Part shown: one piece after another, positions 5,128-21,746 of the stretch
How positions within the stretch are numbered: the first letter of the stretch is position 1
How the letters are laid out: each line of letters starts with the position of its first letter
Virus record (IMG/VR): IMGVR_UViG_3300008261_000116
Span: 1-51,977 of that record
DNA from: a virus
Direction: 5' to 3' (one strand)
Length of the DNA: 51,977 bases
Program-made: the position numbers and the translations under genes
Notes under the pieces: generated by a model
Seen by the model: the letters and a program-made list of their open reading frames with translations, nothing else
The model's database searches: none
What the model was told of the DNA's origin: nothing

Positions 5128-6639
5128 TTAACTAAATTGTTTTTGCTGTTGCTCTAAACTAAGAGGTTCAGGTCTAAGTTTTGTAGAACCCTGATCAGCC
5201 GGTTTTATAGGATTAGCGCTTGGAGCAGTTTCAGTATTTGGAGTGGCTGGACTTGATTGTATAGCCTTTTGTTGCCTTCTTAATTCAGGGTTATATTTAT
5301 TCCCCACCCCTTGAGCAAAATCATCTTTTGTAAAAGAATGAAAAGATGCTTCTTTCCCCGATTTAGGGTCGGTATATTTAAAAGTATCATGAAGTTTTGG
5401 GTTATATGTACCAGCGGCTATTTGTTGTTCTCTTCCTGCTCTTGCTGCTTTAAAAGCCTCTCCAAATGATTGAGGTTTTGCAGCGGCTTCTGTCGGAGCT
5501 TGAGCAGCTGGAGCTTGAGCAGCCGGAGCTTGTTTGACGACATCTCCTGATTGATCAATACCCATGTCCGAGTTTGGTCCTGCATTTTGTTTTGTTTTTG
5601 CTACTTGTCTATCCCTTGCAGCAGGAGATTGTGCATAATTCTGTTTCGCTTGTTGTTCAACAGCAGCATTTGAAGCTGAAGGATCTCCATAGGATTGTTG
5701 ATATTGTTGTTCTGAAATTCCACCGATTGATTCAGGCAATAACGAACTTAGCTTTCCCATACCCCTCTCTACTGCATTAGATTTTTCTCCGTATTTATTT
5801 GTTTCGGTTGTATATTTATCAATTAAAGGATTGACAACATAATCACCTACTGCTCTACCACCTTCAAAAGCCCCGTATAATTGACCTGCTGGGCCTAATG
5901 CGGTTGCTGCACGAGCGGCACCTTGTCTTGCTAATTGCCCTGCGCCGGAAGCTCCAACTCTAGAAGCAAGATTACCTGCTCCTTGAGCAATTTGGCTTGG
6001 TGCATTTCTTACCCCTTGAGCTATTTGGTTTGGTGTTAAGTTTCCAGCTTTAGATGCTAAATTAGAAACTCTTTCACCCAATCTGCTTCCAACATCTTTC
6101 GCTCTTGTTTTTAATTTGCTTCCCAAAACTCTCGGAATTTCCTTAATTGGTCTATCTCTAAGAGATCCCCCTTGTAAAGGCAGGGGCAATTGTTGCTTCC
6201 TCAATTCCTGAATCTTTTGAATGTAAAACTTTTCTCTTTTCTTCATTTCTTTGTCTTCACATTCACACTTTTCAGCTTTATCTTCACATTTACATTCTTC
6301 TTCACTAGCAGCAAGTTTTTGTTGTTTTTTTTCTTTGTCTTGTTTTTCTTTTTTAATTCTTAAATTATGAGCCAATTCTCCTCTTTCAGCTGGAGTTATC
6401 ATTCTTTTTTCATCTTTAGCATCTGCTATCATGTTGTCTAATAATTTAACACCAGTTTTTTTACCCTCTCTAGCATGTTGGACCAATTGATTTTGAAGTT
6501 TATCACTGGATTTTCTAGGTGAATCTTCATCTTTTTTTAAATTAATTGATTTAACCATCTTATACTCGATGGTGTGGCCGCAAGCCTCGGATTTTACTAT
6601 TTTGTATTGAATATCATTATTGTCTATTTTCTTATTCAT
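5128..6639 (-). CDS. Structural-operon protein with HTIEYK motif
   Basis: I use the ATG at 6639 (MNKKIDNNDIQYKIVKSEAC) because it overlaps the stop of the upstream frame (ATGAATAA). Residues 10-30 contain KSEACGHTIEYKMVK, shared with the AAA ATPase and the frameshift gene ending at 7063. Next comes a Lys/Glu/Cys-rich charged segment (residues about 85-140), a Gly/Ala-rich helical region (RVGASGAGQLARQGAARAAT), and a long Gln/Ala/Pro-rich low-complexity C-terminus. Such composition fits an internal head or neck protein. No enzymatic motif seen. About 503 aa. Confidence 0.75.
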   Translation of the reverse strand: MNKKIDNNDIQYKIVKSEACGHTIEYKMVKSINLKKDEDSPRKSSDKLQNQLVQHAREGKKTGVKLLDNMIADAKDEKRMITPAERGELAHNLRIKKEKQDKEKKQQKLAASEEECKCEDKAEKCECEDKEMKKREKFYIQKIQELRKQQLPLPLQGGSLRDRPIKEIPRVLGSKLKTRAKDVGSRLGERVSNLASKAGNLTPNQIAQGVRNAPSQIAQGAGNLASRVGASGAGQLARQGAARAATALGPAGQLYGAFEGGRAVGDYVVNPLIDKYTTETNKYGEKSNAVERGMGKLSSLLPESIGGISEQQYQQSYGDPSASNAAVEQQAKQNYAQSPAARDRQVAKTKQNAGPNSDMGIDQSGDVVKQAPAAQAPAAQAPTEAAAKPQSFGEAFKAARAGREQQIAAGTYNPKLHDTFKYTDPKSGKEASFHSFTKDDFAQGVGNKYNPELRRQQKAIQSSPATPNTETAPSANPIKPADQGSTKLRPEPLSLEQQQKQFS

Positions 6640-7111
6640 CTGTAGACCTTTTTCTAGGAGCATTTCTTTCTTGTTCATAAGGTAAATTCTTTTTTCTAAA
6701 TTCCCGAGCGGGCTTTTTTCTCATATGAACAGTGCCCTCTTTTTCTCTTCTATTTTTTGCAGTTTCTCCATACCTAGAATCTAACTGGCCAGTTTCAGCA
6801 TGTTTTTTTCTGGCTTCATTTTTTTCTTCTCTAACTCTTTTTTGGTTATCGGTTTGGCCTTTTAGGCTAGAAGTACCTGGTTTGGCTGTTACAGCGTTTC
6901 TTTCTTCTTGACTAATTGTTCTTGCTTTGCCTTTTTTGCTATGGAACACTTCTGTTCCTTTTCCTTCTTTAATTTTTTCTTCGTAGCTTTTATCCATTCC
7001 TTCTGGTTCTTTGCTTTCTTTCTCTTTTTTTTCTCTAGCAGCCTTGATACCTTCGTATTGACCTATATTACTTGTCTTTCTTTCAGAAGAAATAGACTGA
7101 CCAAACCCTGC
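6632..7111 (-). CDS. -1 frameshift extension of the gene starting at 7620
   Basis: This frame is open for 159 codons, from the slippery site at 7111-7117 to a TAA at 6632. The first part reads AGFGQSISSERKTSNIGQYE, then a very charged Lys/Arg/Glu-rich segment to ...RKRSTDE. Its first ATG (MDKSYEEK, at 6997) has no Shine-Dalgarno sequence, while the coding-like sequence begins well upstream of it, directly at the heptamer. Its stop overlaps the next start codon (ATGAATAA). I read it as the C-terminal part of a -1 fusion product of about 329 aa. Internal initiation at 6997 is the alternative. Confidence 0.7.
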   Translation of the reverse strand, partial: AGFGQSISSERKTSNIGQYEGIKAAREKKEKESKEPEGMDKSYEEKIKEGKGTEVFHSKKGKARTISQEERNAVTAKPGTSSLKGQTDNQKRVREEKNEARKKHAETGQLDSRYGETAKNRREKEGTVHMRKKPAREFRKKNLPYEQERNAPRKRSTDE

Positions 7112-7620
7112 TTTTTTGAGGCGGAAGAAGGGGTTGAAGATGCTGTATTGCCTTTGATACCAGCGGCTATTGAAGATCCTAAGTTTGATCCTAGGGGTGC
7201 TCCTTGGGAGCCGAATTTCTTTAGTGTCTTATATTGCACAGTGTGCATACCTGATTCAGACTTTTTGAATTCAAACTTATCTTCCTCGTCTTCACTTTCT
7301 TCAGACTCATCTTCTTCAGACTCACTCTCATCTGAGTCGCCGTCGCTTAGAGGTTCGTCTTCCATTTCAGAATCTTCGCTTTCTGCTACAGGAGAGTTTT
7401 CCTTTTTTGACTCACTTTTTGATGCACTAGAGCTTCCTTCACCTTTTAATGAATCAGGACATTCAGCTTCGTCATTATTAGGCTCTTCACCAGCATCGAT
7501 CTCGTGAGCAGTATTTTTAGATTTCTGAAGCATTTCTTCATGTTTTTTCAATGTATTATGAGCTTTCTCCAGAATCATTCTGGCTACTTCCTCCGCTGTA
7601 AACATTTTCTTTTCAGACAT
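7063..7620 (-). CDS. Acidic virion-operon protein, 0-frame product (185 aa)
   Basis: The N-terminus MSEKKMFTAEEVARMILEKA is a helical domain often seen at the start of phage structural proteins. Residues about 50-120 are a Ser/Glu/Asp-rich acidic tract. KSESGMHTVQYKTLKKFG (near residue 125) carries the shared HT-QYK motif. In the 0 frame the protein ends 15 codons after an in-phase A AAA AAG heptamer (7111-7117) with an atypical hydrophobic tail. A -1 shift there joins it to the open frame ending at 6632, giving about 329 aa. A late-promoter-like element lies at 7639-7652. Confidence 0.75.
   Translation of the reverse strand: MSEKKMFTAEEVARMILEKAHNTLKKHEEMLQKSKNTAHEIDAGEEPNNDEAECPDSLKGEGSSSASKSESKKENSPVAESEDSEMEDEPLSDGDSDESESEEDESEESEDEEDKFEFKKSESGMHTVQYKTLKKFGSQGAPLGSNLGSSIAAGIKGNTASSTPSSASKKQGLVSLFLLKERQVI
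7111..7117 (-). other. Candidate -1 ribosomal frameshift site A AAA AAG
   Basis: The heptamer AAAAAAG is positioned exactly in phase (TCA AAA AAG). After slippage the next codon is GCA and the -1 frame stays open for 159 codons. This is the most efficient bacterial slippery sequence known (dnaX type). I see no strong Shine-Dalgarno-like stimulator just upstream. A sequencing or real indel in the A-run is the alternative. Confidence 0.6.
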
Positions 7621-7638
7621 GGCAATCCCCTGATTTTA

Positions 7639-7652
7639 TATATTAAAGATTA
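7639..7652 (-). promoter_or_regulatory. Candidate late promoter element
   Basis: Minus strand reads TAATCTTTAATATA, about 20 bp before the start codon at 7620. It belongs to the recurrent WAATCTTTA element family. Confidence 0.5.
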
Positions 7653-7728
7653 ATTCTATACATGTTTTTAGATCAAATTATATCAACAAAATCAAATACT
7701 TATTAGCAATCCCATCTTTTTTAAATAG

Positions 7729-8448
7729 TTAAAATCCTGAAAAAGATTGCCAACCTTTGTGCTTCCCTTTTTTATATTGTGCTATTCTTCTTAATTGTCT
7801 ATTCGATAGGTTATATTCCCTTGAAAAAGATCTGATATCGGACACCCTATATATCAAACCCTCCGGAGAAATTAAAGTATATTTTTTTCTTAATTTTTTT
7901 ACTGTTTTTTCTATTTCTTCGCCAGTCTTCTTTCTGGTAAAACCCTTGTTTAGCCCTAATTTGGCTCTTTCTTGCTGTATTTTTTTCATGTTTTCAATCA
8001 TTTCTTCTGTGATAACTCTTTCTGAATTGTATTTTTTGAGCCATTTTTTTTGATTTTCAGAACCTTTTTCCCCGTACATAGGGTTATTTTTGCCTGATAA
8101 TCTTGAGCTTAGAAGCTTTCTTGTGGATTCACTGATTGTTTTTTTATTCCCACCTATCCTAAGATTGTACCCGTTTGGAGATAAAGAATTTAGTTTATGA
8201 ATCCATAGCCATTCTTTGTAGTTTAGTTCGGTTTCGTTTGTAGCCCAATCTATTACCTCAATTTTAAAATTATCAGACCCATGTTTAGCTATCGAGGTAT
8301 GTAAATATCTGCATATTTTTCTATTACTATTTCCACCCACATATCTGGTTTGACAAATATGTTGCTTCCATCTTTGTTCTAGAGTTTTAACGGTTTGTCC
8401 TATATAAATTTTATTGTTAATTAAATTTGTTATTTTATAAATTAACAT
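7729..8448 (-). CDS. GIY-YIG homing endonuclease
   Basis: The ATG at 8448 gives the canonical start MLIYKITNLINNKIYIGQT: the I-Y-K-I and Y-I-G signature of the GIY-YIG nuclease domain. The catalytic Arg region is TLEQRWKQH. A NUMOD3-type segment (SGKNNPMYGEKG) and a C-terminal NUMOD1-like DNA-binding repeat (REYNLSNRQLRRIAQYKKGK...HKGWQSF) follow. At 239 aa it has the usual length of free-standing phage homing nucleases. It starts inside the last codons of the upstream structural gene and leaves that gene intact, so it looks like a mobile insertion into the late operon. The nucleolytic role is known for the family; its target site is not visible. Confidence 0.92.
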   Translation of the reverse strand: MLIYKITNLINNKIYIGQTVKTLEQRWKQHICQTRYVGGNSNRKICRYLHTSIAKHGSDNFKIEVIDWATNETELNYKEWLWIHKLNSLSPNGYNLRIGGNKKTISESTRKLLSSRLSGKNNPMYGEKGSENQKKWLKKYNSERVITEEMIENMKKIQQERAKLGLNKGFTRKKTGEEIEKTVKKLRKKYTLISPEGLIYRVSDIRSFSREYNLSNRQLRRIAQYKKGKHKGWQSFSGF

Positions 8449-9185
8449 TTCCAGCGTTTCCTTGCTTTGCAAGCCCTTTTTTCAGGGTCTTTTTTGCAAT
8501 CTATATTATGCATATCTATTTGGCCCTTATTTCTTGCGCAAAAAGACTTTTTTCTTTTACCACCTTCTGGTTGAGGTCTTTTTAAGTTAGATCCAGTGGC
8601 TTTATTATATGCCCTTCTGCCTTTTTCGGTCAAGCCTCCTTTGTCGGATTTATGGTCTGCCTTAAGATTAAAATGTTCTTTTTTATCAATTTTAGACGGT
8701 TTTTCTTTTTCTTCTTTTTTAATAGGTTGACAAGATCCTTCGGAATAGGCTTTTTTCCCTGGGGTTGGCTCATATCCTTCCCAGCATCTTTTTTCCATTT
8801 TAGACTTACAAGCCTTTGAAATTATGTCCAAATTCTTCATAAGCTCGCTAACTATTTCTTCGCTTTTTTTGACATCTTGACCGGCTTTTACTTCATTACA
8901 TATAGCAAAAGCACTCTCTTTATCGTGTCCCTTAGCCTTAACCTTTTTAACACATCTTTCATGTGTTTCAGGATCTGCTTCTTCCGGAACTCCTTGTTTT
9001 TTCTGCATTTTAGATTTATTTAAAGCACCAACTCTCCCTTTAGGGATGTTGTCAGGACTGACTTCTGCTGTTGTATTTGAATCTAAAACATCTTCTACGG
9101 CATCTTTTTTATGCTTGAGCCTGTTGACGTTTTTATAAAGAGATTTTAACAACGAATCAGCTTTTTCTTTTAAATAATTATCCAT
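8442..9185 (-). CDS. Cys-motif virion-operon protein (DUF6321-like C-terminus)
   Basis: This 247-aa protein is a chain of short conserved Cys motifs. They are HERCVKKVKAKGHDKESAFA-ICN (residues about 75-100), KRCWEGYEPTPGKKAYSEGS-CQP (about 130-155) and GGLTEKGRRAYNKATGSNLK (about 180-200). A C-terminal SFCARNKGQ...DCKKD...CKARKRWKC block completes it. The last two match, from memory, a phage family called DUF6321. The same SFCA...C block ends the cyclase-like protein of this operon. Cys spacing suggests small metal-binding or disulfide modules. It is probably a head-neck or internal virion protein; the function is unknown. A late-promoter-like element precedes it. Confidence 0.78.
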   Translation of the reverse strand: MDNYLKEKADSLLKSLYKNVNRLKHKKDAVEDVLDSNTTAEVSPDNIPKGRVGALNKSKMQKKQGVPEEADPETHERCVKKVKAKGHDKESAFAICNEVKAGQDVKKSEEIVSELMKNLDIISKACKSKMEKRCWEGYEPTPGKKAYSEGSCQPIKKEEKEKPSKIDKKEHFNLKADHKSDKGGLTEKGRRAYNKATGSNLKRPQPEGGKRKKSFCARNKGQIDMHNIDCKKDPEKRACKARKRWKC

Positions 9186-9194
9186 ATTTACCTC

Positions 9195-9207
9195 TAAATA
9201 AAGATTT
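9195..9207 (-). promoter_or_regulatory. Candidate late promoter element
   Basis: Minus strand reads AAATCTTTATTTA just upstream of the gene starting at 9185, overlapping the end of the previous gene. Confidence 0.45.
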
Positions 9208-10189
9208 ATTCTGGATCAGTTTTAGATGTCCATATTTCTTCTTCAGGATCAATAATATCAGGTACTTGACCGCCGTCTTTGTTTATCATAACTAAACCTG
9301 CGTCTATACCTTCTATAATGTTAATTGTTTCTATTATACGTTTCGGGGCTTTAATCCAAGTATTTTCTACCTGTCCGGTTAGAGTTATAAATCTACTATA
9401 CACATTTTCTCCAAACCCTTGAAACGCATCATTTCTAATCATGTCCGTAGTTGTAAGATTTGATATTTGAAAATTTCTGCTTTCTATTAACCCTTCTCTA
9501 TATCTTAGTAATCCATACATCATTATGGAATAAAGCCATAAAAGAGCATTGGGATCTCCATGAACGTGACATCCTATAGAAATGTTTTCTTGAAAAGTTG
9601 CAACCTCTCTCCTTGCCTTGTATATCCTGTATTCAGGAATTATTGCAATTACATCAAAATTTATGGCAGTGCCTGGGGTAATAAAAAACCCATTATTACT
9701 TTTTGAAGTAATAAGAAAACCCGCACCTGTCTGAGGGTTTATAACCGCCATATTTGGCTGAATTATTATCAAATCAACAGAACTAGGAACTTCAAAAAAT
9801 CCGGTTGCTTGATCATAAGAAGTATAATAAAAAGGGGCTATAATGTATGGGACCACCTTACCAATCTGAGTGGGATTTAAAGTTTCTACTAAATGAGTCA
9901 TATCCGCCATCCTGGCCAGACTTCTGTCTTCCATGTTTGTGCCAATTGCAATCGTCACGCATGGCATTTTTTCGAGATCCATTCTGTGCGGCAAAAAAAC
10001 CGATATTTCGTTATCGGTAATCCATTTTTTTGCATTTTCTATTTCTTTTTGACCATAGATACCAGAAAGCATTGGATCTGTAATAAAATCCGATAAAATA
10101 TCGTCCAACAGCCACGGGTTCTGTCTGACATCTCTTAGGATTAACTCTATAACTCGTCTAAAAAAGACATCACCTTGCCATATTGACAT
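9206..10189 (-). CDS. Probable tail terminator or neck protein
   Basis: The product is 327 aa (MSIWQGDVFFRRVIELILRD...). It follows the gp10-like tail-completion gene with a TAATG overlap at 10189 and precedes the sheath/tube block by a few genes. Connector-to-tail genes usually have this order: adaptor, stopper, tail completion, tail terminator, sheath. Sequence is mixed alpha/beta with repeated short hydrophobic strands (FFITPGTAINFDVIAIIPEY). I do not recognise a Pfam family; the role is inferred from position. Confidence 0.7.
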   Translation of the reverse strand: MSIWQGDVFFRRVIELILRDVRQNPWLLDDILSDFITDPMLSGIYGQKEIENAKKWITDNEISVFLPHRMDLEKMPCVTIAIGTNMEDRSLARMADMTHLVETLNPTQIGKVVPYIIAPFYYTSYDQATGFFEVPSSVDLIIIQPNMAVINPQTGAGFLITSKSNNGFFITPGTAINFDVIAIIPEYRIYKARREVATFQENISIGCHVHGDPNALLWLYSIMMYGLLRYREGLIESRNFQISNLTTTDMIRNDAFQGFGENVYSRFITLTGQVENTWIKAPKRIIETINIIEGIDAGLVMINKDGGQVPDIIDPEEEIWTSKTDPE

Positions 10190-10953
10190 TATTTGCCTTC
10201 ATATTTTGCCTTAATTGCCGGAAACAATTCATTTTGCCATAATTGTTCTGACCATTTAAGAGCTTTTTCCAATATATTTGTAGGAGGGGTTCCCGGATGA
10301 ATCCATTTCCCTGTTCCTTTATGTTTTTCCGATATAACCCTAAATGCTGTTATGCTTTTTTCAATCTTTCCTGTTTTAGGATTTTTACCTTGAAAAACAC
10401 TTACTCTAGATATATTATCAGAAATTTGCTTTTTGTCTCTTAAATCTTTAATATCAAAAGAATGTATTTTACCGATTCGAGGACTTCCTTTATTATCCAA
10501 TTCTAAATTATTTTTACCTGTTCTGACACCTTTTTTTTGCAAAAAAGACTTTATTTCAGGCACAAGATTTTCACCAGCCGAAGGAGTCTGGGCAGATCCT
10601 TTGCTCTCCTTTAGTGGTATAACTTTGTATCTAGACCCGTCTTTTGCTTTTTTCCCATTTTTAAGAAGATCTTCCATAAATCCGGATTTTCTTCCTTTTT
10701 CCATCCAAAGCGCTTTTTGATCTAATTCTATAATGACCATATCCTCTGATACCTGCTCTATTTTTAACGCAGTTTTATACATAGAGGCCAACTTGGGCGG
10801 AAAATGTTGTTCAGCAAGTTCTTCGGCTTTTTTTAATGCACCAGATCCCATAGTTTTAACAGCAAGCCTAAGGTCTTCTGTGATGTTGTTTTTTATTGCA
10901 CTAACATCCTCTTCTATGCTTCCCTGAACTTGTACGTCAATATACAAAATCAT
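10189..10953 (-). CDS. HK97-gp10-like tail completion / neck protein
   Basis: This 254-aa protein starts with a helical region (AIKNNITEDLRLAVKTMGSG...). It contains ALWMEKGRKSGFMEDLL, the spot where gp10-like proteins carry an 'E.G...' turn, and ends with GKWIHPGTPPTNILEKAL. The last block is the hallmark of this family. Such proteins join the head connector to the tail. A middle Lys-rich insertion (residues about 100-180) is longer than usual. Its ATG overlaps the TGA of the -1 extension of the preceding gene (ATGA), which ties its translation to that frameshift product. Confidence 0.78.
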   Translation of the reverse strand: MILYIDVQVQGSIEEDVSAIKNNITEDLRLAVKTMGSGALKKAEELAEQHFPPKLASMYKTALKIEQVSEDMVIIELDQKALWMEKGRKSGFMEDLLKNGKKAKDGSRYKVIPLKESKGSAQTPSAGENLVPEIKSFLQKKGVRTGKNNLELDNKGSPRIGKIHSFDIKDLRDKKQISDNISRVSVFQGKNPKTGKIEKSITAFRVISEKHKGTGKWIHPGTPPTNILEKALKWSEQLWQNELFPAIKAKYEGK

Positions 10954-11207
10954 GCAGGTCCTAATGGAGGGAGTTTGTTTTTAGTACCCCTTACTGGGCT
11001 TTGTCCAGGAGGAGCTGTCGGATCTCCGTTATTATCTAAAGCCAACCCTCTGGATGCATCGATCCATTTTGCCTTGCCTGTTTCACGGTCTGTGTCTTTT
11101 ATTTTATATCCCTTAACAGTCCCTTCGGCATGGTGTGGTTTAGGAATATGCTTTGTGGTTTGTTTGGTCGGTAGTCCACCACTTCTCTTATCTAACGACC
11201 CTAGTTC
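10950..11207 (-). CDS. -1 frameshift extension of the cyclase-like protein
   Basis: Directly after the A AAA AAG site at 11207-11213 the -1 frame is open for 85 codons with coding-like sequence: ELGSLDKRSGGLPTKQ, HAEGTVKGYKIKDTDRETGK, WIDASRGLALDNNGDPTAPP and a Pro-rich end. It has no ATG or GTG start of its own; the first possible start is a TTG deep inside. Its TGA overlaps the next ATG. The stop of the 0 frame follows the slippery site by one sense codon. The fusion would be about 723 aa. Confidence 0.72.
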   Translation of the reverse strand, partial: ELGSLDKRSGGLPTKQTTKHIPKPHHAEGTVKGYKIKDTDRETGKAKWIDASRGLALDNNGDPTAPPGQSPVRGTKNKLPPLGPA

Positions 11208-13120
11208 TTTTTTCTTTTCTTCTCCAAAAAATTCTTTAATTTTTCAGATTTTTGAATAGCAGGCCCTTTTTCAGCGTTTTTGCCTCTGCAGTTTAGTTTT
11301 TTCCTTGCAACACACATAGGAGAATCTTTATCCTCGTTTGCTCGGCAATCATTCCCTGCATTCTTCATTTTTTGATTAGAAGAAGCGCAAAAAGAAGCTG
11401 CTTCAACTTTTTTAGGTTTTGGCGGCTTTTTTTTCTTATCTTTAAATGACTTTTTTTTAGAATCAGATGCTTTACTTTTAAGCTTCTTTAGCTTTTCTTT
11501 CATTTTTAAAAACATCTGTTTTTTGTCTTCTTTTTTTCTCATTTCCAGAAGACTTTTTGCATTATTAATTTTGCTTATGAGATTGTAAAAATTTTCACTT
11601 TTTTCAAACCCCTGCTCTTCATCATCAGAAATTTGAAAATCAGCAGGATTCATTTCTTCATCATCAGAGACTTCAAAATCAGCAGGATTCATCTCCTCAT
11701 CGGCTTGAGGCTCTTCGCTCAAGCTATCTCCATACCCACCATAGCCAAGTTCTTTTGCCATTTCTATCATAGATTGTAAAGAAACTACAAGAGCATTATA
11801 AAGATCTGGGTTTTGAGAAGCAAGAGCAGATAGCATTTCTTTATTCTGTTTGAATATTTGTAAACTATCAAAAATAGCTTGTTTTAAAGATTCATCAGTG
11901 ATCTCTTCTTCAGCATCCATTGACTCTTCGTCTTCCATGCCTTCCATATCTTCAGCATCTATATCTTCTTCATCAGACATTTCTGAAGCTATTGAATCAG
12001 ATAATTCATCTTCATCTTCCATATTTTCTTCATCCATATCTTCCTCGTCCATATCTTCCTCGTCGGATTCGTCGGACTCTTCTTCTAAATATTCATCAGA
12101 AAAATCCCCTTCATCGCTGTATTCGTCTTCTTCTTGAGCATCTGCTGCCATTGCTTCTTCGTGCTCTATATCACCATCTTCATCCAGATCGTCTTCTGGA
12201 TTTATTTCACCATGTTCTTCCTGATCATCTGGACGACCGTCAACATCTAAATCTTCCTGATCAGTTACAGACTCTTCTTCATCGGATTCTTCGTCCTCTG
12301 CATCTAGGTCTTCGTCTGACTCTTCCATTAAATCCAAGCTTTCTTCCTCAGATTCCATGTCTTCGTCGGATTCTTCCTCATCAGACTCTTCCTCATCAGA
12401 CTCTTCCTCATCAGACTCTTCCTCATCAGACTCTTCTTCAGATTCCATATCTTCTTCAGATTCCATATCTTCTTCAGATTCTTCATCCTCTTTCTCGAAT
12501 TTAGGTTTGTCGCTTTCCATTTCTTTTAATTTTGAATAATATTCAGAATCTTCTGTGAGATGATCCAAGGCAATCTCTTCAGCCTCCCCTTCGTCATCAG
12601 TATGTTCTTTTTCTACTACAAGACCAACTTTTAATTGACCTGGTTTAACATCTGATTCTTCAGTTTCATCACCGACTCCGCCCTTCAGTTTTTGATCAGA
12701 AGGTTCTTTTTCTAGATTCCCTGTGATGGATTGCTTCATCACTTCTTCTATTTCAGGGGAGTAATCAACTATTTGATTTTTTCCATTAACTTTTGCATAA
12801 ATGAGAGCTTTTGCTGCATCGGATATTTTTTCACCAATACCTATTGATACAGAAAACCCTGTTTGTTTTTGGTATTTGTCTTTTAGGTCTTCTAATTCTT
12901 CAATGCTGGCTAAAGGAACTTGGAAAATAGCCTCATCACTACCGCTGCTGATTATAGCTCCGCCATTATATTCCGCCCATTTGGAGAATATCTGCACACC
13001 AGCATTTATTTTGCCCGAAATGTCGGATAGTTTATCTGCATCATCAGATAATACCGCTCCTCCAACACTTTGTCCTACATCATCAGCATCAATTGCTACA
13101 TAGGTCATTTGCTCTTTCAT
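11201..13120 (-). CDS. Acidic virion-operon protein with cyclase/polymerase-like (mCpol/GGDEF-type) domain
   Basis: Residues about 5-125 look like a nucleotidyl-cyclase/CRISPR-polymerase palm domain. There is a first metal motif YVAIDADDVGQ, a long helix, then NGGAIISSGSDEAIFQV (equivalent of GGDEF/GGDD), TGFSVSIGIG and a closing AKALIYAKVNGKNQIVDY typical of GGDEF proteins. Both candidate metal aspartates are present. Then follow about 300 residues of Glu/Asp/Ser-rich repeats (EESDEE, DMESEE) and Lys-rich helices. The C-terminal block is SFCASSNQKMKNAGNDC...CVARKKLNC. 639 aa in the 0 frame. Synthesis of a cyclic or linear oligonucleotide is inferred from family resemblance; a purely structural role is possible. 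Located among neck genes. Confidence 0.78.
   Translation of the reverse strand: MKEQMTYVAIDADDVGQSVGGAVLSDDADKLSDISGKINAGVQIFSKWAEYNGGAIISSGSDEAIFQVPLASIEELEDLKDKYQKQTGFSVSIGIGEKISDAAKALIYAKVNGKNQIVDYSPEIEEVMKQSITGNLEKEPSDQKLKGGVGDETEESDVKPGQLKVGLVVEKEHTDDEGEAEEIALDHLTEDSEYYSKLKEMESDKPKFEKEDEESEEDMESEEDMESEEESDEEESDEEESDEEESDEEESDEDMESEEESLDLMEESDEDLDAEDEESDEEESVTDQEDLDVDGRPDDQEEHGEINPEDDLDEDGDIEHEEAMAADAQEEDEYSDEGDFSDEYLEEESDESDEEDMDEEDMDEENMEDEDELSDSIASEMSDEEDIDAEDMEGMEDEESMDAEEEITDESLKQAIFDSLQIFKQNKEMLSALASQNPDLYNALVVSLQSMIEMAKELGYGGYGDSLSEEPQADEEMNPADFEVSDDEEMNPADFQISDDEEQGFEKSENFYNLISKINNAKSLLEMRKKEDKKQMFLKMKEKLKKLKSKASDSKKKSFKDKKKKPPKPKKVEAASFCASSNQKMKNAGNDCRANEDKDSPMCVARKKLNCRGKNAEKGPAIQKSEKLKNFLEKKRKKN
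11207..11213 (-). other. Candidate -1 ribosomal frameshift site A AAA AAG
   Basis: AAAAAAG lies in phase (AGA AAA AAG AAC TAG) one sense codon before the 0-frame stop. Slippage by -1 gives AAA AAA GAA CTA and opens 85 further codons. The same heptamer in the same phase occurs in the gene at 7063-7620. Confidence 0.65.
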
Positions 13121-13122
13121 AC

Positions 13123-13410
13123 CTATTCCTTATTCAAATTTTTCAATGTGTTTAATAACATTTCAATGTTTTCTGGGTCTATATTTTTGGGGAATTGCAT
13201 TTTTATAGCTTTTTCAGATTTCTGGATTTTAATATTTTTATCCCAATCTTCCCCGTAACAAATACATAGTGTTAAATTTTTTCCACCTTCATATAAATTA
13301 AATCCGCAATCCGGGCAGCTAATGCACTCAGCTTTTTTTATCTCAGCCTCTTTCCTCTGATCATCCTTAGATTTTTTTAAGAAATTCTCTAATTTTTTAG
13401 AGGAACTCAT
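13123..13410 (-). CDS. Small zinc-ribbon-like protein
   Basis: The 95-aa product has CISCPDCGFNLYEGG and later LCICYGEDW: a C-x2-C-x2-C cluster plus a second Cys pair, which could bind one zinc ion. The flanks are Lys-rich helices (KSKDDQRKEAEIKKAE). It ends two bases before the start region of the cyclase-like gene, in the same operon. The role is unknown; zinc binding is inferred from Cys spacing. Confidence 0.68.
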   Translation of the reverse strand: MSSSKKLENFLKKSKDDQRKEAEIKKAECISCPDCGFNLYEGGKNLTLCICYGEDWDKNIKIQKSEKAIKMQFPKNIDPENIEMLLNTLKNLNKE

Positions 13411-13423
13411 CAGTTGCTGCCTT

Positions 13424-13816
13424 TTAAGGGTTAACTCTTAAGTGATTGTCATCCCTTAAAACGTAAAGAAAAATACCAGCACTTGCTTTTACATATTTGT
13501 AATCTGCGGCTGAGTATCTGGTAAACGCTTGTCCTTCTACAGGAAACGTATTATCAGCTGGAGCAGAGCCAACCACTCCTATGCTGCCTGTTTCTGACAT
13601 TTCAACCCAACCCAATCCTGTGGTTGTTTTAAAGAAAAACAATTGATCACCTGGGCTAATTCTTAGCTCAGAACTTGCATCTCCAATAAACTTAAGAGCA
13701 GGTCCTACTTCCATGTTTTTTTGAGCACCAGATTCTGAGTTGTGTTCAATATTATCAATGGTTTGAGGATCTTCCATAAGCCTGCCATCAATTCTTCTTC
13801 TAAAAAACTTATTCAT
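13424..13816 (-). CDS. Hypothetical 130-aa beta-rich structural protein
   Basis: The ATG overlaps the stop of the previous gene (ATGAATAA) and has AGGAG upstream. The sequence is beta-rich (LRISPGDQLFFFKTTTGLGW...) with an FPVEGQAFTRYSAADYKYVK segment, consistent with a small head-decoration, stopper or neck protein. No family recognised. Confidence 0.68.
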   Translation of the reverse strand: MNKFFRRRIDGRLMEDPQTIDNIEHNSESGAQKNMEVGPALKFIGDASSELRISPGDQLFFFKTTTGLGWVEMSETGSIGVVGSAPADNTFPVEGQAFTRYSAADYKYVKASAGIFLYVLRDDNHLRVNP

Positions 13817-13982
13817 CTTGTTCTCCTATATCATTCATATCAACTTTTATTTCATACTCATAAATAGTATCAATTGGATCTTTTGGTTCTTCTATGTTTC
13901 TAACCAATTTTTCTTTTCCGTAGTCCTTATCAATATCATTATTTTGATTATAATAAACATATTCTCTTTGAATAACCTTCAT
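13809..13982 (-). CDS. Hypothetical 57-aa protein
   Basis: The start ATG at 13982 (MKVIQREYVYYNQNN) lies inside the last codons of the upstream gene; a further-upstream start at 14012 is possible. Tyr- and acid-rich, with an end (IGEQDE) that supplies the RBS of the next gene. No family recognised. Confidence 0.55.
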   Translation of the reverse strand: MKVIQREYVYYNQNNDIDKDYGKEKLVRNIEEPKDPIDTIYEYEIKVDMNDIGEQDE

Positions 13983-14616
13983 TAGGGATTTCTGTAATAT
14001 ACCAATGGGCATTGTATTTGTACCTTATCGAGTACACTCTTCCCTTGCCGGTATCTGGGTCGATTCCAGGGTTGTCTCTTCCGTCAATCCACTCAATATA
14101 GCCGTCTTGAATCTTAAATTGAACTCCCTCTTTGTATTCAACCCCTTTGCTATCAATCAAAAAATCAACGCACTTAATAGGGAATTGTGCTCTGTCAAAA
14201 TTACCCGGATCATATTGCATCCTTTGGTAATTAGACACTAAAACATCTAGATCCTTAATAAACACCCTGTCACCTGGGGCTAAGTGTATTTCCTTATCAT
14301 CATTATAAAATCTAGGCAACAAAAGCCTAGCAGTAGAGTAGTCTATGATCCCACCCTCTCCGTGCGTTTTTCTCTTAGAATTGGAAACAATTACGCCGGT
14401 AAAACACCCCACCTTCTTATATATCATCCCGTTTGAGGTCACAGAATCATACTGATCTGTTCTTCTATAATCCCCTCTATCTTTTAAGCCGAGAGGGGAG
14501 GGGATGGCTGCGTAATGTTCAAGACTCACTCCTCTGTTTTTGATAAACTCATCCTGGGACTCAAGATTGATTCCTATATCAGGATTTGGAGGAAATGGGA
14601 TCTTTAATTTATCCAT
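13948..14616 (-). CDS. Hypothetical connector-type structural protein, 222 aa
   Basis: The product begins MDKLKIPFPPNPDIGINLES and is beta-rich, with ERVFIKD-like, DFLIDSKGVEYKEGVQF and KIQDGYIEWIDG strands. Position among neck genes and size suggest a head-tail stopper or connector component, by inference only. It starts two bases before the stop region of the upstream gene. Confidence 0.68.
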   Translation of the reverse strand: MDKLKIPFPPNPDIGINLESQDEFIKNRGVSLEHYAAIPSPLGLKDRGDYRRTDQYDSVTSNGMIYKKVGCFTGVIVSNSKRKTHGEGGIIDYSTARLLLPRFYNDDKEIHLAPGDRVFIKDLDVLVSNYQRMQYDPGNFDRAQFPIKCVDFLIDSKGVEYKEGVQFKIQDGYIEWIDGRDNPGIDPDTGKGRVYSIRYKYNAHWYITEIPNEGYSKRICLL

Positions 14617-14618
14617 AT

Positions 14619-15155
14619 TTAGAATTTTTTCTCAATTTTTAACTTATTATTTTTAGCAAATTGTTTTATGGCCTTTTCTAGGCTTTTGCTCAATTCAGCC
14701 TTATTTAATCTGGAGAGTCTTTCTTCGTTTTTGAATGTTTTATTCAAAGAAAGAACAGAATCATCCTTGCTTGCCTGAATTGAGAATATTTCAAAATTAT
14801 GCTTTGTTATCTTAAAATCAACTTTGTCCCCATTCTTGATGGCATAAATATCTATTCCTAGTATATTTTTGTTCATAGGGGAGAGGTTTTTGGAATAATT
14901 AGTTACTTCGGGCGATGGTTTCCCTTCGCTTTTGTTTAGGGTTTCTTCAAATTTTTGCTCAAACTTCTTAGAAATCTGATAAGAAACTAAGGCTGGATGA
15001 GAGCCAACTGCTAGGATGGAGCTTTTTTGGCTATTTTCAGCTTTTTTACCAATACCAATATGCAGACCGCCTTTTAGGGTGACGAGCTTTACCTCATCTC
15101 CATTAAGATTGCCTAGTTTATTTACTTCTTTAATTTCGTCTTCTTTGATGTCCAT
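14619..15155 (-). CDS. Hypothetical 178-aa protein
   Basis: The N-terminal part (VKLVTLKGGLHIGIGKKAEN...ILAVGSHPALVSYQISKKFE) is beta-rich and resembles a small OB-like or ligase-type strand pattern. The C-terminal half is Lys-rich and helical. GAGGGCG lies before the ATG, and a WAATCTTTA element is about 30 bp further upstream. No family recognised. Confidence 0.68.
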   Translation of the reverse strand: MDIKEDEIKEVNKLGNLNGDEVKLVTLKGGLHIGIGKKAENSQKSSILAVGSHPALVSYQISKKFEQKFEETLNKSEGKPSPEVTNYSKNLSPMNKNILGIDIYAIKNGDKVDFKITKHNFEIFSIQASKDDSVLSLNKTFKNEERLSRLNKAELSKSLEKAIKQFAKNNKLKIEKKF

Positions 15156-15170
15156 ACGCCCTCTTTACAT

Positions 15171-15188
15171 AATATAATATAAAGATTA
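15171..15188 (-). promoter_or_regulatory. Candidate late promoter element
   Basis: Minus strand reads TAATCTTTATATTATATT about 15-30 bp upstream of the gene starting at 15155. Its plus-strand sibling at 24658 is nearly identical. Confidence 0.5.
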
Positions 15189-15207
15189 TTTCAGATATTT
15201 CAAACAG

Positions 15208-15468
15208 TTAAGTGGTTGTTTTTGTAGAATATTCTACTTCAAATTCTTCGTTATTTTTATTTAGAAAGGTTTTCATGTCAAAATTACTAAAAAGACGGTC
15301 AGATTTTTCCTTTTCCCATATTTTCAGTTTATTTTTCAATAAAATCAGTGATTTAGCATTTTTTTCTTTTCTAATAGAGTTTTCTAGTACAATTATATCA
15401 CCCGCCAGGTCATCCCAGCTTCTTTTTTTGGCTTTTCCGATAAGTTTTTCATTTGTGATTTTTTTCAT
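15208..15468 (-). CDS. Hypothetical 86-aa charged helical protein
   Basis: Start chosen at the ATG at 15468 (MKKITNEKLIGKAKKRSWDD). The product is Lys-rich and largely helical (SLILLKNKLKIWEKEK). It follows the lytic-transglycosylase gene closely. No family recognised. Confidence 0.6.
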   Translation of the reverse strand: MKKITNEKLIGKAKKRSWDDLAGDIIVLENSIRKEKNAKSLILLKNKLKIWEKEKSDRLFSNFDMKTFLNKNNEEFEVEYSTKTTT

Positions 15469-15482
15469 ATTTATATAGTGTA

Positions 15483-16448
15483 TCACTTATCTTTAGATCC
15501 TGCAATAGATCTGGCTGGAGCATCCTGTGTTTTATATTTATTATATTTTTGAACATAATCATGATTTAAATAGTCTTTTCTATTGGTGTCAAAAGATTCA
15601 GGGTTTATATTATGCCCTTGATTCCAGGCATATGCCATTTTGTTTTCATCACCACCGAATTTGTCGTAAAGCTTGTTTGCTAAAAAAGAAACCATGGCTT
15701 TTTCGTGATGAGGGTTTTTAGCCAAAGAGTTTGCTATTTTTTTCTTGTCCATTTTAGCATACGCTGCTATCTCAGGGGTGCTGCTCATTCTTCCTGCAAT
15801 TTCTTGCACTGTTTTAGGCATCAAGGCCCATTGGCCAATGGCGCTATCTCCTCTGTGTATTCCGCTTTTAATTTTAGGGTGTTTTAAATTTTTACCGCCT
15901 GAACTTTCTATCATTGCGGTTGTGTTTAAAAAGTTATTTATTTTACCCTCTTTTTCTAAAGAAGGTGCATTTTCTGATTCTTCAAAGTCGTCTTCTTCCT
16001 CGTCAATAGAAGAAGGGGCACTTGGTTGGTTTTGTAAAAAACTTCCTTTTTTAGATCTGTCTGTTTTTGGGGTATCTTCCCAGTTTTTGACTGATTCGGA
16101 TAGTTTGCTGCCTAAGTTAGATGTTTGTCTTGTAATAGCTTCGGGCGGGTTGATATTCTGGGGCATGCTAGGTTCTGTCATATAACGATGAGCATGGACC
16201 AGACCAAGTAGGGCTACTCCGTTTCTAAGAAGTTTGCCAAAATTTTTATTTAATTCTTCTTCAGATATGTCTGGATATTTTTCTTTATATTCGTAGGACT
16301 TTTTAATAGCAAATTCTTTTAAAATTTGAACAAGCTCTTCTTCAGAATAGATTTTTTCGTTTTCAAAAGAAGGAGACACCCAATTATCGAATTTTGAGGT
16401 ATTTGATTGTTCGTTTTTTTTAATCTCTTGTAAAATTTTTTTATACAT
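15483..16448 (-). CDS. Virion lytic transglycosylase (SLT-like domain)
   Basis: The C-terminal half (residues about 175-310) carries the lytic-transglycosylase pattern: AMIESSGGKNLKHP with a candidate catalytic Glu, then GQWALMPKTVQEIAG. Next come LAKNPHHEKAMVSFLANKLY and MAYAWNQGHNIN (the A..AYN.G motif). The N-terminal half is charged and low-complexity. Such enzymes open the peptidoglycan during DNA injection and are carried in the virion; location in the late structural operon fits this rather than a free endolysin. 321 aa. Confidence 0.82.
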   Translation of the reverse strand: MYKKILQEIKKNEQSNTSKFDNWVSPSFENEKIYSEEELVQILKEFAIKKSYEYKEKYPDISEEELNKNFGKLLRNGVALLGLVHAHRYMTEPSMPQNINPPEAITRQTSNLGSKLSESVKNWEDTPKTDRSKKGSFLQNQPSAPSSIDEEEDDFEESENAPSLEKEGKINNFLNTTAMIESSGGKNLKHPKIKSGIHRGDSAIGQWALMPKTVQEIAGRMSSTPEIAAYAKMDKKKIANSLAKNPHHEKAMVSFLANKLYDKFGGDENKMAYAWNQGHNINPESFDTNRKDYLNHDYVQKYNKYKTQDAPARSIAGSKDK

Positions 16449-16463
16449 AAAATGATAATATCA

Positions 16464-17294
16464 CTAAATATTAGTAACAAATCTCTTGTTATAAAACACA
16501 GCCTTAATTTTCTTAACCATCTGATCTCTTTCTGCCATTAATTCACCAATTCTTACCTGATACAGGTTTGGACCTGGGTTTGAGCTGGACTGAGAAATGC
16601 CGTCATGGCTAATACTTACAGAAGTATTCTTATTTTGAGCACCTAAGTTACCTAAAATATTAGCAGCTGCGATGCATCCGATTAACTCATTGATAATTGA
16701 TGGAACAAATCCTTCTTTTGTACATACACCTGTTGTGTATTCTATTTCCCAATAAGAAGGAACCCAATCAATTCCTCCATTCATTGCTGCGATGAAGGCC
16801 AAACCGGCAGCGCCCGTTGGCTGTCCTTGGCTGATACCTGTTGCCCCTACAACTGTCAGAGGAATGACATTTATCTGTTTTTGATAAAACCTGGCTGCGT
16901 CAATCCAATCAGCTGGTATTTCAAAAATGCTTTTATCGTTTGAGCTTCTTATGCACATTTTGTCAATTTGAAGAACTGGACCAAAATTTGCCATTAAATG
17001 AATAAAGGCACGATATAGACTTCTGTCAAATGGGTGTTTTTCCTTTCGTCTTACAGGGGTAATGGTAGTGCCTATTAAGAGTTCGGTCTTATCGGCAGCA
17101 ATTTGGATTATATCTTTTAAATCGTCGTTAGAGTATTGAGATAGATTGATTCCTTTTAAATATCTATTTACCAATTTTTCAGGCGTTAAGATAGGTTCTA
17201 TTCTTTTTAATACTTCACTACTTTCTTCAGCCCCCACTGGGTAGGCTTTTGTACCGTAGTCTTTAGGGTAGTTTTGATCAGATAAAAAAGGCAT
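16464..17294 (-). CDS. Head-tail connector/neck-like protein
   Basis: Start at ATG 17294 (MPFLSDQNYPKDYGTKAYPV), preceded by GGGAG and sharing its A with the upstream TAA. The 276-aa protein has an alpha-helical N-terminus (SEVLKRIEPILTPEKLVNRY...) and a beta/Gly-rich middle (VVGATGISQGQPTGAAGLAF). The helical end is IGELMAERDQMVKKIKAVFY. Position at the start of the neck block suggests a head-tail adaptor. Inferred from context; no family named. Confidence 0.7.
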   Translation of the reverse strand: MPFLSDQNYPKDYGTKAYPVGAEESSEVLKRIEPILTPEKLVNRYLKGINLSQYSNDDLKDIIQIAADKTELLIGTTITPVRRKEKHPFDRSLYRAFIHLMANFGPVLQIDKMCIRSSNDKSIFEIPADWIDAARFYQKQINVIPLTVVGATGISQGQPTGAAGLAFIAAMNGGIDWVPSYWEIEYTTGVCTKEGFVPSIINELIGCIAAANILGNLGAQNKNTSVSISHDGISQSSSNPGPNLYQVRIGELMAERDQMVKKIKAVFYNKRFVTNI

Positions 17295-17683
17295 TAGCAA
17301 CTCCCTGCGTCAAGAAGGTCAACAGAAATAGCCTGTTCTACTCTAAATCTACGCTGCTCTCCATCTTCTGTTATTGAAAATTTTACAGCACCTGGATTTG
17401 GTACTTCATCGCTTGCCAAGGTAATAGTCCAGATCGACTTGTCGTCGGGAAATGCTTGGGTGGCAATCTTTGTGATTTCTGAGGCTTCATCTATGTTTAA
17501 AAATGTTACAGATACTTCATCAATAACGGTGGCTTGACTCATATATCTCAAATCTTCTTTAAGTTTATCGACAAATTGAAAATACAAAACCTGTGCCGAT
17601 CCTTCTGAAATATTCCACTGAGAGGCGTATTGAAAAGAATTGACATTTGCTACATTTTTCAAGAACTTAACTGATAGTTTCAT
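17294..17683 (-). CDS. Hypothetical 129-aa virion-operon protein
   Basis: Beta-rich protein (SVKFLKNVANVNSFQYASQW..., YFQFVDKLKEDLRYMSQA...). It is the first gene of the left minus-strand block, with TAGGAG before the ATG and a WAATCTTTA element at 17698-17709. It probably belongs to the neck or tail; no family recognised. Confidence 0.68.
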   Translation of the reverse strand: MKLSVKFLKNVANVNSFQYASQWNISEGSAQVLYFQFVDKLKEDLRYMSQATVIDEVSVTFLNIDEASEITKIATQAFPDDKSIWTITLASDEVPNPGAVKFSITEDGEQRRFRVEQAISVDLLDAGSC

Positions 17684-17697
17684 GGGTGCTCCTATGG

Positions 17698-17709
17698 TTT
17701 AAAGATTAT
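17698..17709 (-). promoter_or_regulatory. Candidate late promoter element
   Basis: Minus strand TAATCTTTAAA, about 15 bp before the start of the left block (17683). It lies between divergent genes. Confidence 0.5.
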
Positions 17710-17724
17710 GATATTATATATTGT

Positions 17725-18267
17725 ATGTCAAGAAAAATAAGATGCATCTACATAGACGGAATAGATAAGGCAGGAAAAACCTCTGTTACCAGAGAGATGC
17801 GTAAGTATTTGAAAAATAAGAGTATTGACCTGCACGAAGTCAATGGTACAGATGATAACAAGTTGAAATTACAGAACGTACTTTTGGAAGACAATTCTAA
17901 TTCTATTGTTTTAAAAGAAAACTCTGTTTTATCCCTGTTTCAAAAAGACATAAAAGAAGGGGTGAGTATATTCTCTGTTGCTGATAATTATAGAGAATTA
18001 TTAAGAAAAGAACAAGACATAAACCACAGGTATGGGTCTGTCCATTTCTTTTTAATACCCGAAAACATGTCTATCCCAGTCGCAAGGTTTCAAGAAATAC
18101 CCGACATAGCCGGAATTTGGGATTCTTATAACTTTTTCAAGAATATAAATAATTACTCAGTTTCTCAGGGTCTAGATATTAGACTTATTCCATTCAACGA
18201 GGATGACAAAATATTTGATATACGAGATCGTATACTAAATATTCTGGAAAGTAACTATTTAGTTTAA
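17725..18267 (+). CDS. Thymidylate-kinase-like dNMP kinase
   Basis: The product opens with RCIYIDGIDKAGKTSVTREM, a P-loop of the thymidylate kinase type (GxDxxGKT). It has later segments that fit the NMP-kinase fold. At 180 aa it is short for a thymidylate kinase. I start it at ATG 17725 because upstream in-frame starts add a non-conserved leader; no Shine-Dalgarno is visible. It is a single plus-strand gene between two minus blocks, so it may have been inserted. Phosphorylation of deoxynucleoside monophosphates for phage DNA synthesis is the known family role. Confidence 0.75.
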   Translation: MSRKIRCIYIDGIDKAGKTSVTREMRKYLKNKSIDLHEVNGTDDNKLKLQNVLLEDNSNSIVLKENSVLSLFQKDIKEGVSIFSVADNYRELLRKEQDINHRYGSVHFFLIPENMSIPVARFQEIPDIAGIWDSYNFFKNINNYSVSQGLDIRLIPFNEDDKIFDIRDRILNILESNYLV

Positions 18268-18440
18268 TCTCGTCTTTTAACGATTCTTTTTCTAACTATT
18301 TGAAATGATTGATTTGATTTAAAGATATGATCTTTTAATTCGGCTGACGATAAAGGCTCGGGAGATGAGGGTTTTTTAGGTTCTGGTTTCTTGCGAAACA
18401 AGCTTTCCATTAAAACCCTCATTAGATCCGATTTTTCCAT
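18264..18440 (-). CDS. Small 58-aa protein
   Basis: A short frame starting 9 bp after the upstream stop: MEKSDLMRVLMESLFRKKPE, then a Pro/Lys-rich linker and a basic end (IVRKRIVKRRD). It ends overlapping by a few bases the convergent kinase gene. There is no strong RBS, so translation may depend on re-initiation. No family recognised. Confidence 0.5.
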   Translation of the reverse strand: MEKSDLMRVLMESLFRKKPEPKKPSSPEPLSSAELKDHIFKSNQSFQIVRKRIVKRRD

Positions 18441-18449
18441 TAATTATTA

Positions 18450-18890
18450 TTAAACAGCATCTGGAATTGCAGCAGCAGCAGCAATCGCAGCGTCCATTTT
18501 ATCTGCAACAGATTTAGCAATAGCTCTGTTTGCCATAGCAATTACCATTCTTTCTCTTGCCTCTTGGCTGATAGGAAGAAGTTGTGCCTGCTTAGCATTT
18601 AGTGCAGCATTATTTGCTGTTGAATCTGCTGCCTGAAGTTCCAAGCATTCTACTATTAGTTTTAGTTTATCGGAAATTTCTTTTCCGTGACGACGGCTGG
18701 TAAGAGCAATAATCATGTATTCTTCAATTTGTTTTTCTTCTTTTTCAGAACTTGAGATTACATCAAGAATAGCCTGAGCAGCTACTGCGTCGGCAGGGGT
18801 GACATCAATAACCCTAGCCACAATTTCGCTGGCAACTTTTTTGCTTGCAAGAGCAACAGTTAGAACAAATTCTTCGTTTTTACTAATCAT
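18450..18890 (-). CDS. Hypothetical 146-aa helical, Ala-rich protein
   Basis: Almost wholly helical and Ala-rich (VAAQAILDVISSSEKEEKQI..., NNAALNAKQAQLLPISQEAR). There is a strong AGGAG before the ATG and a 55-base leader with two small hairpins (ACGG...CCGT and ACGC...GCGT). A WAATCTTTA element precedes the leader. This architecture suggests an abundant late protein, perhaps a head-decoration or internal protein. No family recognised. Confidence 0.68.
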   Translation of the reverse strand: MISKNEEFVLTVALASKKVASEIVARVIDVTPADAVAAQAILDVISSSEKEEKQIEEYMIIALTSRRHGKEISDKLKLIVECLELQAADSTANNAALNAKQAQLLPISQEARERMVIAMANRAIAKSVADKMDAAIAAAAAIPDAV

Positions 18891-18941
18891 AATTTTCTCC
18901 TATAGAACGGTTAATCCGTAACGCTTATGGCGTACTATGTG

Positions 18942-18956
18942 ATATGCTAAAGATTA
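18942..18956 (-). promoter_or_regulatory. Candidate late promoter element
   Basis: Minus strand TAATCTTTAGCATAT, upstream of the hairpin-containing leader of the gene starting at 18890. Confidence 0.5.
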
Positions 18957-19011
18957 CAGTTACATAGCCGTTACACAGATAAATACTTGAAAATATTAGA
19001 TATTTTTTTAT

Positions 19012-19040
19012 TTGACAAGAAAAAATTGATAATGTAATAT
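19012..19040 (+). promoter_or_regulatory. Sigma70-type promoter
   Basis: TTGACA at 19012, 17-bp spacer, TAATAT at 19035; it drives the gene starting at 19067. Confidence 0.8.
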
Positions 19041-19066
19041 ATAAAACATAAAAGCAAGGAGGAAAA

Positions 19067-19345
19067 ATGCTTACAGATGAACAAAAAAGATTTATTGAAC
19101 TATCAAAAAAAGTAGAAGGTCTTAAGAATGAGCTTAAAGAATTGGGGGCAGAAGTTGAGGGGGTTTTGACAGCAATCGGTGTTGGTAAGGCTTTCCAAGA
19201 CCCTGAGGATGGTACGGTTTTTGAGATTGTGGCTCCAAAAGGTACTTTCGTAAGTTTTAAAACAGTGGATTACGAAAGAACAAAAAGAGCAGGAGAAGCA
19301 CGAGGGACTCTTAGCATGGCCAGAGCTAAAGAGTTAGGCTTTTAG
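19067..19345 (+). CDS. Hypothetical 92-aa protein
   Basis: The first 40 residues form a helical coiled-coil-like segment (KRFIELSKKVEGLKNELKEL). A compact beta-type domain follows (FQDPEDGTVFEIVAPKGTFV). There is a strong AAGGAGG and its own consensus promoter, unlike the neighbouring virion genes, so it is probably expressed early. No family recognised. Its end overlaps the convergent minus-strand gene by four bases. Confidence 0.75.
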   Translation: MLTDEQKRFIELSKKVEGLKNELKELGAEVEGVLTAIGVGKAFQDPEDGTVFEIVAPKGTFVSFKTVDYERTKRAGEARGTLSMARAKELGF

Positions 19346-19665: not shown

Positions 19666-19671
19666 AAAAAC

Positions 19672-20064: not shown

Positions 20065-20069
20065 ATAAA

Positions 20070-21731: not shown

Positions 21732-21746
21732 TTTATTATCCCACAC

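Follow-up and report, generated by a model that had tools for sequence, protein, structure and literature searches.

A predicted Panoptes-type cyclic-dinucleotide synthase in the virion module of a tailed-phage lineage, with a possible role against cyclic-nucleotide immunity

A multidomain protein encoded in the neck block

The window analysed here is a stretch of 51,977 nucleotides of viral DNA (IMG/VR record IMGVR_UViG_3300008261_000116, positions 1 to 51,977), in which a gene for a 639-residue protein lies inside the virion structural block (Table 1). An earlier note, made from the letters alone, had singled out the interval 12740-13120 (-), which corresponds exactly to residues 1-127 of the ORF 11201-13120 (-). 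The four motifs that it had read there are all present, namely AIDADDVG (residues 9-16), SGSDEAIF (59-66), SIGIG (92-96) and YAKVNGKNQIV (108-118), and they lie within a full-length match to a Pfam profile, far beyond chance. The fusion to acidic repeats and a Cys block that the same note described is equally evident in the translation (residues 205-420, with 58% Asp+Glu, and 576-613, respectively). Between these two lies a helical-looking segment, the second recognizable block of the protein, which is matched in the orthologues of the window's own clade and shows a similarity by eye in the proteins of Myxococcus phage Mx1 and of a further group of relatives, the L061-type phages. In the latter, CxxC-rich linkers take the place of the acidic linker. 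Outside of the N-terminal domain, the proteins diverge much faster and switch between these two linker types.

Table 1. Coordinates of the gene, its parts and its neighbors (window coordinates unless a locus is named)
Feature	Coordinates	Strand	Basis or remark
Complete gene for the 639-aa protein: mCpol and DUF5661 domains, acidic linker, conserved helical segment and basic tail with Cys residues	11201..13120	(-)	
mCpol (minimal CRISPR polymerase) domain, aa 1-127	12740..13120	(-)	PF18182, PDB OptS, AF2, Z-score
Motif 1, AIDADDVG; metal-binding D11 (KpOptS Asp6) and D13	13073..13096	(-)	orthologue conservation
Motif 2, SGSDEAIF (GGDEF-hairpin equivalent); D62 (KpOptS Asp57)	12923..12946	(-)	orthologue conservation
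Predicted base-contact residues S35, N39 (KpOptS Ser30/Asn34)	13004..13018	(-)	alignment to OptS
YAKVNGKNQIV with conserved lysines K110, K114	12767..12799	(-)	putative phosphate-contact role
DUF5661 segment (PF18905), aa 161-203	12512..12640	(-)	E=1.9e-11
Acidic low-complexity linker, aa 205-420, 58% D+E	11861..12508	(-)	
Helical-looking segment LKQAIFDSLQIF...IEMAKELG, aa 412-462	11735..11887	(-)	
FEKSE, aa 505-509, candidate prohead-protease site	11594..11608	(-)	motif enrichment
IQKSE, aa 622-626, candidate prohead-protease site	11243..11257	(-)	motif enrichment
C-terminal Cys block, aa 576-613	11282..11395	(-)	
Upstream neighbor with CxxCGF...CxC motif	13123..13410	(-)	adjoins mCpol in the syntenic loci examined
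Downstream neighbor, neck protein, HK97 gp10-like by inspection; phrog_16819	10189..10953	(-)	syntenic in Mx1, 28% identity
SP10-terminator-like neck/tail protein, neighborhood marker	9206..10189	(-)	in 27/27 mCpol phage loci
SLT-domain (lytic transglycosylase) protein, same operon	15483..16448	(-)	
Predicted 2H phosphoesterase of relatives	L061:1547-2677, L060:738-1565, L073:5423-6313		orthologues in L121-L142

The surrounding late block combines genes for the SLT-domain protein, the small CxxC protein, the gp10-like and SP10-terminator-like proteins, a DUF6321 protein and the tail sheath. The same gene order recurs in Mx1, upholding the placement among neck genes made in the earlier note. 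Mx1, the only cultured phage matched, has a genome of 169,621 bp with annotated portal, prohead protease, major capsid protein and sheath. The capsid proteins of Mx1 and the window share 52% identity, and that of the window also shows a distant similarity to those of SPO1-type phages. Several other elements were observed in these genomes. A stand-alone NUDIX hydrolase (19672-20064 (-); PF00293, E 5e-16) adjoins the presumed prohead protease gene of the window, a GIY-YIG/NUMOD3 homing endonuclease is inserted in its neck block (7729-8472 (-)), with similar insertions at different sites in L060, L067 and L073, and a tail-fibre-like protein with many repeats of the SLQSSLSAEESARIAADSS type is encoded at 24809-27571 (+). 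The Phage_L5_gp82 domain (PF25735) is encoded by a stand-alone gene away from the neck block of the window (35202-35558 (-)) and inside the neck block of Mx1, adjoining the mCpol homologue (L008:10820-11734).

An mCpol domain of the OptS family with conserved catalytic residues

The Pfam mCpol profile (PF18182) matches residues 7-120 (12761-13102) with E=7.2e-19 and 68.7 bits, against a curated cut-off of 26.4 bits, and the match spans model positions 1-114 of 114. In phmmer searches of the PDB, the sole clear sequence relatives are two OptS sequences of the Panoptes system (9mnr/9pd0 and 9nwn; E about 1e-10), while a search of PHROGs with the protein yielded no match. An AF2 model of the domain, computed from an 11-sequence alignment of the window and the collected loci, reached a pLDDT of 95.2 and a pTM of 0.88 and displays an OptS-type palm fold devoid of the accessory parts of the CRISPR or GGDEF enzymes. 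Its top Foldseek match is OptS (TM 0.77-0.89), and VIA-align superimposes it on OptS with Z-scores of 17.3-18.1 (1.7-2.1 A over 118-119 of about 120 residues), ahead of the next folds, namely GGDEF (Z 13.4 at best), the palms of Y-family polymerases and Cas10, all of which lie at Z 12-13. Two other assignments were rejected. For a GGDEF diguanylate cyclase (PF00990) there was no hit at E<=10 in P0001/P0002, the profile found no match in the records of the window's clade, and the structural Z-score was 13 versus 18 for mCpol. GTP cyclohydrolase III gave no Pfam hit, and its two-palm fold agrees only in part (2qv6, TMt 0.33) with what is here a single palm. Hence, the palm-type nucleotidyl cyclase fold proposed in the earlier note is borne out by the model; of the three affinities that it had left side by side, mCpol stands, whereas GGDEF and GTP cyclohydrolase III are clearly poorer fits. 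We regard the assignment of the N-terminal domain to the mCpol (OptS) family as secure.

Aligned with KpOptS, D11 and D62 of the phage domain correspond to Asp6 and Asp57, and S35 and N39 to Ser30 and Asn34, which contact the adenine side. In OptS, Asp6 is catalytic and Ser30/Asn34 contact the base (PMC12657218). Across 27 distinct phage orthologues, with identities to the window domain as low as about 26-40%, D13, G94, G96, G113 and S35 are invariant, and D11, D62, K110, K114 and G16 are unchanged in all but one, so that the conservation of both metal aspartates, already pointed out in the earlier note, extends to 26 of the 27 relatives. Motif 2 reads GGGDEG, GGGDEF or SGGDEF in relatives, with GGGDE in many of them and GGGDEF in one copy from a bog metagenome-assembled genome (G002:C54). 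Comparison of the mCpol domain of the window with those of its nearest relatives gives a dN/dS of 0.036-0.039, an approximate value as dS is above 1. These observations make it likely that the domain is catalytically competent. Position 39, on the other hand, varies (N, D, T and others), and the products may accordingly differ between phages.

The sole exception is the homologue in Mx1 (WNM70340.1), which has the substitutions D11S, D62A, K110Q and K114G while retaining the glycines and the fold signature; its loss of the catalytic residues points to a role of the protein that can do without catalysis. Mx1 also has a GGDEF-type gene (WNM70324.1; L094:17173-17904; PF00990 E=1e-9) in the head operon between the prohead protease and the scaffold, which is absent from every other record examined and looks, in this single genome, like a functional replacement of the degenerate mCpol.

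Vertical inheritance and a candidate link to the virion

The orthologues were gathered both by mCpol scans and, independently, by scans with neighboring genes; they come from contigs of up to 177 kb and from the bog metagenome-assembled genome (L067, G002:C54), and the proteins range from 430 to 860 residues. All loci found with the neighboring genes that cover the site carry the mCpol gene. Further, all 27 adjoin the same SP10-terminator-like neck marker, and, compared pair by pair, the loci show correlated identities in the two proteins (r=0.90, Mantel P 5e-4). As the neighbor-found loci all carry the gene and its identities track those of the neck marker, it belongs to the core of a lineage of large tailed phages and is inherited vertically rather than recently captured. 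Searching the phage collection with KpOptS by tblastn gave no match. A survey of 398 bacterial genomes for mCpol returned one new Panoptes locus and two phage-type copies in one metagenome-assembled genome, a yield too small for a tree of phage versus host mCpols. The new locus, in Pseudogemmobacter hezensis (L068:8001-8979), has an OptS adjoining a 2TM beta-rich OptE-like protein, with genes for a patatin-like protein and a nucleotidyltransferase nearby; by its gene content it is a Panoptes-CBASS locus. The main texts on Panoptes (PMC12657218, PMC12657230) mention no phage-encoded or prophage mCpol, although single phage sequences may already be listed in supplementary tables.

A short motif, [ILVMFY]xKSE, is concentrated in the scaffold, portal, protease and neck proteins of these phages (window 5128-23151; L008; L074-L082; L112-L118), with up to six sites in scaffold proteins. 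Its enrichment was evaluated against shuffled proteins, post hoc, the motif having been spotted in these very proteins. In the head/neck block of Mx1 12 sites were observed versus 1.0 expected (P 1e-9), as opposed to 1 versus 2.5 elsewhere in the genome; the corresponding blocks have 10 versus 1.4 in the window, 8 versus 0.67 in G003 and 14 versus 1.5 in G004, with a weak signal in G005 (5 versus 1.5, P 0.02). The bare tripeptide KSE was discarded as the unit, not being enriched (8 versus 4.9): the enrichment needs the hydrophobic residue two before the lysine and is seen in the head/neck block only. The mCpol orthologues themselves have 18 sites versus 2.6 expected, distributed over 11 of the 27 proteins, in three of which a site directly follows the mCpol domain; the other 16 lack the motif. 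This pattern suggests that [ILVMFY]xKSE is a candidate recognition site of the prohead protease. Together with the location in the neck block and the vertical inheritance with a neck gene, this candidate motif makes packaging plausible, and we are inclined, with some reserve, to view the mCpol protein as a component of the virion.

In Mx1, two further large proteins are encoded between the capsid and neck genes, a polyvalent protein of 1479 residues with GNAT, ART-PolyVal and NUDIX domains (L008:2433-6872) and a HipA/PI3K-like kinase protein (L008:6880-8739). They are candidate injected effectors by analogy with the types predicted to be injected in PMC5512222.

Possible roles and comparison with known systems

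A possible link to cyclic-nucleotide immunity is a second gene of the L061-type phages, which lies in the neck operon about 4 kb upstream of mCpol and codes for a predicted 2H phosphoesterase. In some phages it is fused to an SLT-like transglycosylase domain, and the counterparts of the window's SLT-domain protein in L061-type phages bear the 2H domain. Two histidines of the protein, each within an Hx[ST] motif, are invariant, and its AF2 model (pLDDT 88.8) aligns in VIA-align with CPDase (Z 9.3), rotavirus VP3 (8.9), Usb1 (8.8), Acb1 (6.1) and the penguinpox cGAMP PDE (6.1), with unrelated folds only below Z 4; a mitoribosomal protein is one further match (Z 6.8). The protein matches no Pfam 2H family, and neither hhalign nor a PDB sequence search links it to Acb1; the identification comes from the comparison of folds and from the invariant histidines. 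Acb1 is a 2H phosphoesterase that phages use against CBASS by destroying cyclic nucleotides, and the counter-defences known from phages act on such signals by degradation or sequestration. The 2H gene is lacking in Mx1 and in the clade of the window, and a phmmer search of 856 ORFs of five phage genomes with T4 Acb1 and Acb2 yielded nothing below E 0.2.

In Panoptes, OptS constitutively makes a cyclic dinucleotide, the guard nucleotide, that holds the effector OptE off, and removal of this product by phage sponges or Acb1 leads to cell death (PMC12657218, PMC12657230); T4 Acb1 in particular triggers the system (PMC12657230). The reading that we favor, and to which we give about an even chance, is that the phage gene codes for a virion-module protein with a competent cyclic-dinucleotide synthase, whose probable target is cyclic-nucleotide immunity of the Panoptes kind, with both catalysis and packaging being predictions. 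Sequence and model show the OptS fold, with both metal aspartates and the lysines conserved and the predicted base-contact serine invariant. An OptS-like dimer of this domain would condense two ATP into a 2',3'-type cyclic dinucleotide, with ATP and GTP as possible substrates in relatives that differ at position 39. Going by the motif and the neighborhood, the protein would be made late, enter the prohead, be trimmed by the prohead protease at the hydrophobic-xKSE sites and leave with the particle or the DNA. When the next cell is infected, the product could then interfere at an early stage with cyclic-nucleotide immunity of the host. Such an action on host defence at the start of infection, as the earlier note had envisaged, is strengthened by the 2H phosphoesterase, which is found in many relatives though not in the clade of the window. 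In its most specific version, the enzyme would replenish the ligand that keeps an OptE-type effector of Panoptes inactive, sparing the phage the penalty for removing host signals with a sponge or a phosphodiesterase. We consider it unlikely that a packaged Panoptes-type synthase serves as such a counter-guard, allowing the phage to destroy or sequester CBASS signals without setting off OptE; in many relatives, the destruction may be carried out by the co-encoded predicted 2H phosphoesterase. The OptE/Cap15 receptor (PF18153) is absent from each of 13 phage records that carry the gene, and a synthase without its toxin fits a counter-guard. A role directed specifically at Panoptes is a hypothesis that we consider unlikely.

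The strong constraint on the catalytic residues and the location within the late structural block are arguments for an active synthase that serves the phage's own late program or acts on host physiology, such as c-di-GMP/c-di-AMP pools or the timing of lysis, with no need for injection. The variable position 39, which allows the products to differ between phages, and the GGDEF-type gene in the head operon of Mx1, expected if any source of cyclic dinucleotides serves, would also be in line with this. However, fusion to a protein with head-protease-like motifs and a location among neck genes are superfluous for a purely intracellular signal, and a phage-encoded receptor was not identified; we deem this account possible but doubtful. 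Mx1, which keeps the domain with its glycines despite D11S, D62A, K110Q and K114G, brings up another explanation, wherein the palm is retained in a neck or head protein for a structural purpose or for binding nucleotides, with no cyclase activity. OptS palms dimerize or tetramerize (PMC12657218), which could suit the assembly of a ring or neck. Yet a scaffolding role leaves unexplained why every catalytic residue is kept in 26 of the 27 proteins at about 26-40% identity, even as the remainder of the protein diverges much faster and switches its linker type, and we consider it quite unlikely. The mCpol being the sensor enzyme of Panoptes (PMC12657218, PMC12657230), the gene could also belong to a phage-borne defence against competing phages that pairs mCpol with an effector. 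This is highly improbable: the control bacterium G001 has an OptE, detected by PF18153, adjoining its OptS, as against the lack of that domain in the 13 phage records, and the neighbors in all phage loci are virion genes.

Returning to the favored reading of a virion-delivered synthase, a Panoptes-family enzyme supplying the signal would be the expected next move in an arms race in which Panoptes punishes signal removal. If the counter-guard version is true, it would represent a virion-delivered immune antagonist that produces a signal, unlike the counter-defences that degrade or sequester one, and an enzyme whose action ahead of any phage gene expression could be put to the test. Even with a target other than Panoptes, it would be unexpected to find a cyclic-dinucleotide synthase conserved by vertical descent in a virion module; the gene would also add a phage-encoded mCpol family with predicted variation in its products and, for an uncultured lineage, a candidate motif for prohead cleavage.

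Among known systems, Panoptes OptS is closest to the window domain, with which it shares the fold, the full-length Pfam match, the catalytic Asp pair, the base-contact Ser and Asn and the conserved lysines. However, OptS stands alone as a protein of about 120-130 residues beside a 2TMbeta effector in bacterial defence neighborhoods, often next to CBASS as in the P. hezensis locus, whereas the phage mCpol is the N-terminus of proteins of 430-860 residues that lack an effector and are all encoded in the neck operon. GGDEF cyclases share the palm fold and the GGDE(F)-like hairpin, but structure and profile place the phage domain with mCpol. GGDEF and other signal enzymes such as RelA/SpoT are found in phage polyvalent proteins predicted to be injected (Iyer et al. 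2017, PMC5512222), in which a signal-nucleotide enzyme is likewise fused into a large protein whose gene lies among virion genes. The phage mCpol differs from these in not being a GGDEF domain, in having a single enzymatic domain with low-complexity linkers and in being a vertical core gene as opposed to a sporadic one. Acb1 is a phage enzyme that acts on cyclic nucleotides, and relatives of the window phage encode a protein with the 2H fold in the mCpol operon; yet Acb1 destroys cyclic nucleotides, whereas the phage mCpol is a predicted synthase. Finally, a precedent for the proposed mode of action is Alt of phage T4, a head-carried and injected ADP-ribosyltransferase (PMC5512222), which is an unrelated enzyme; for the mCpol protein, it is location and motif that point to a comparable passage in the virion.
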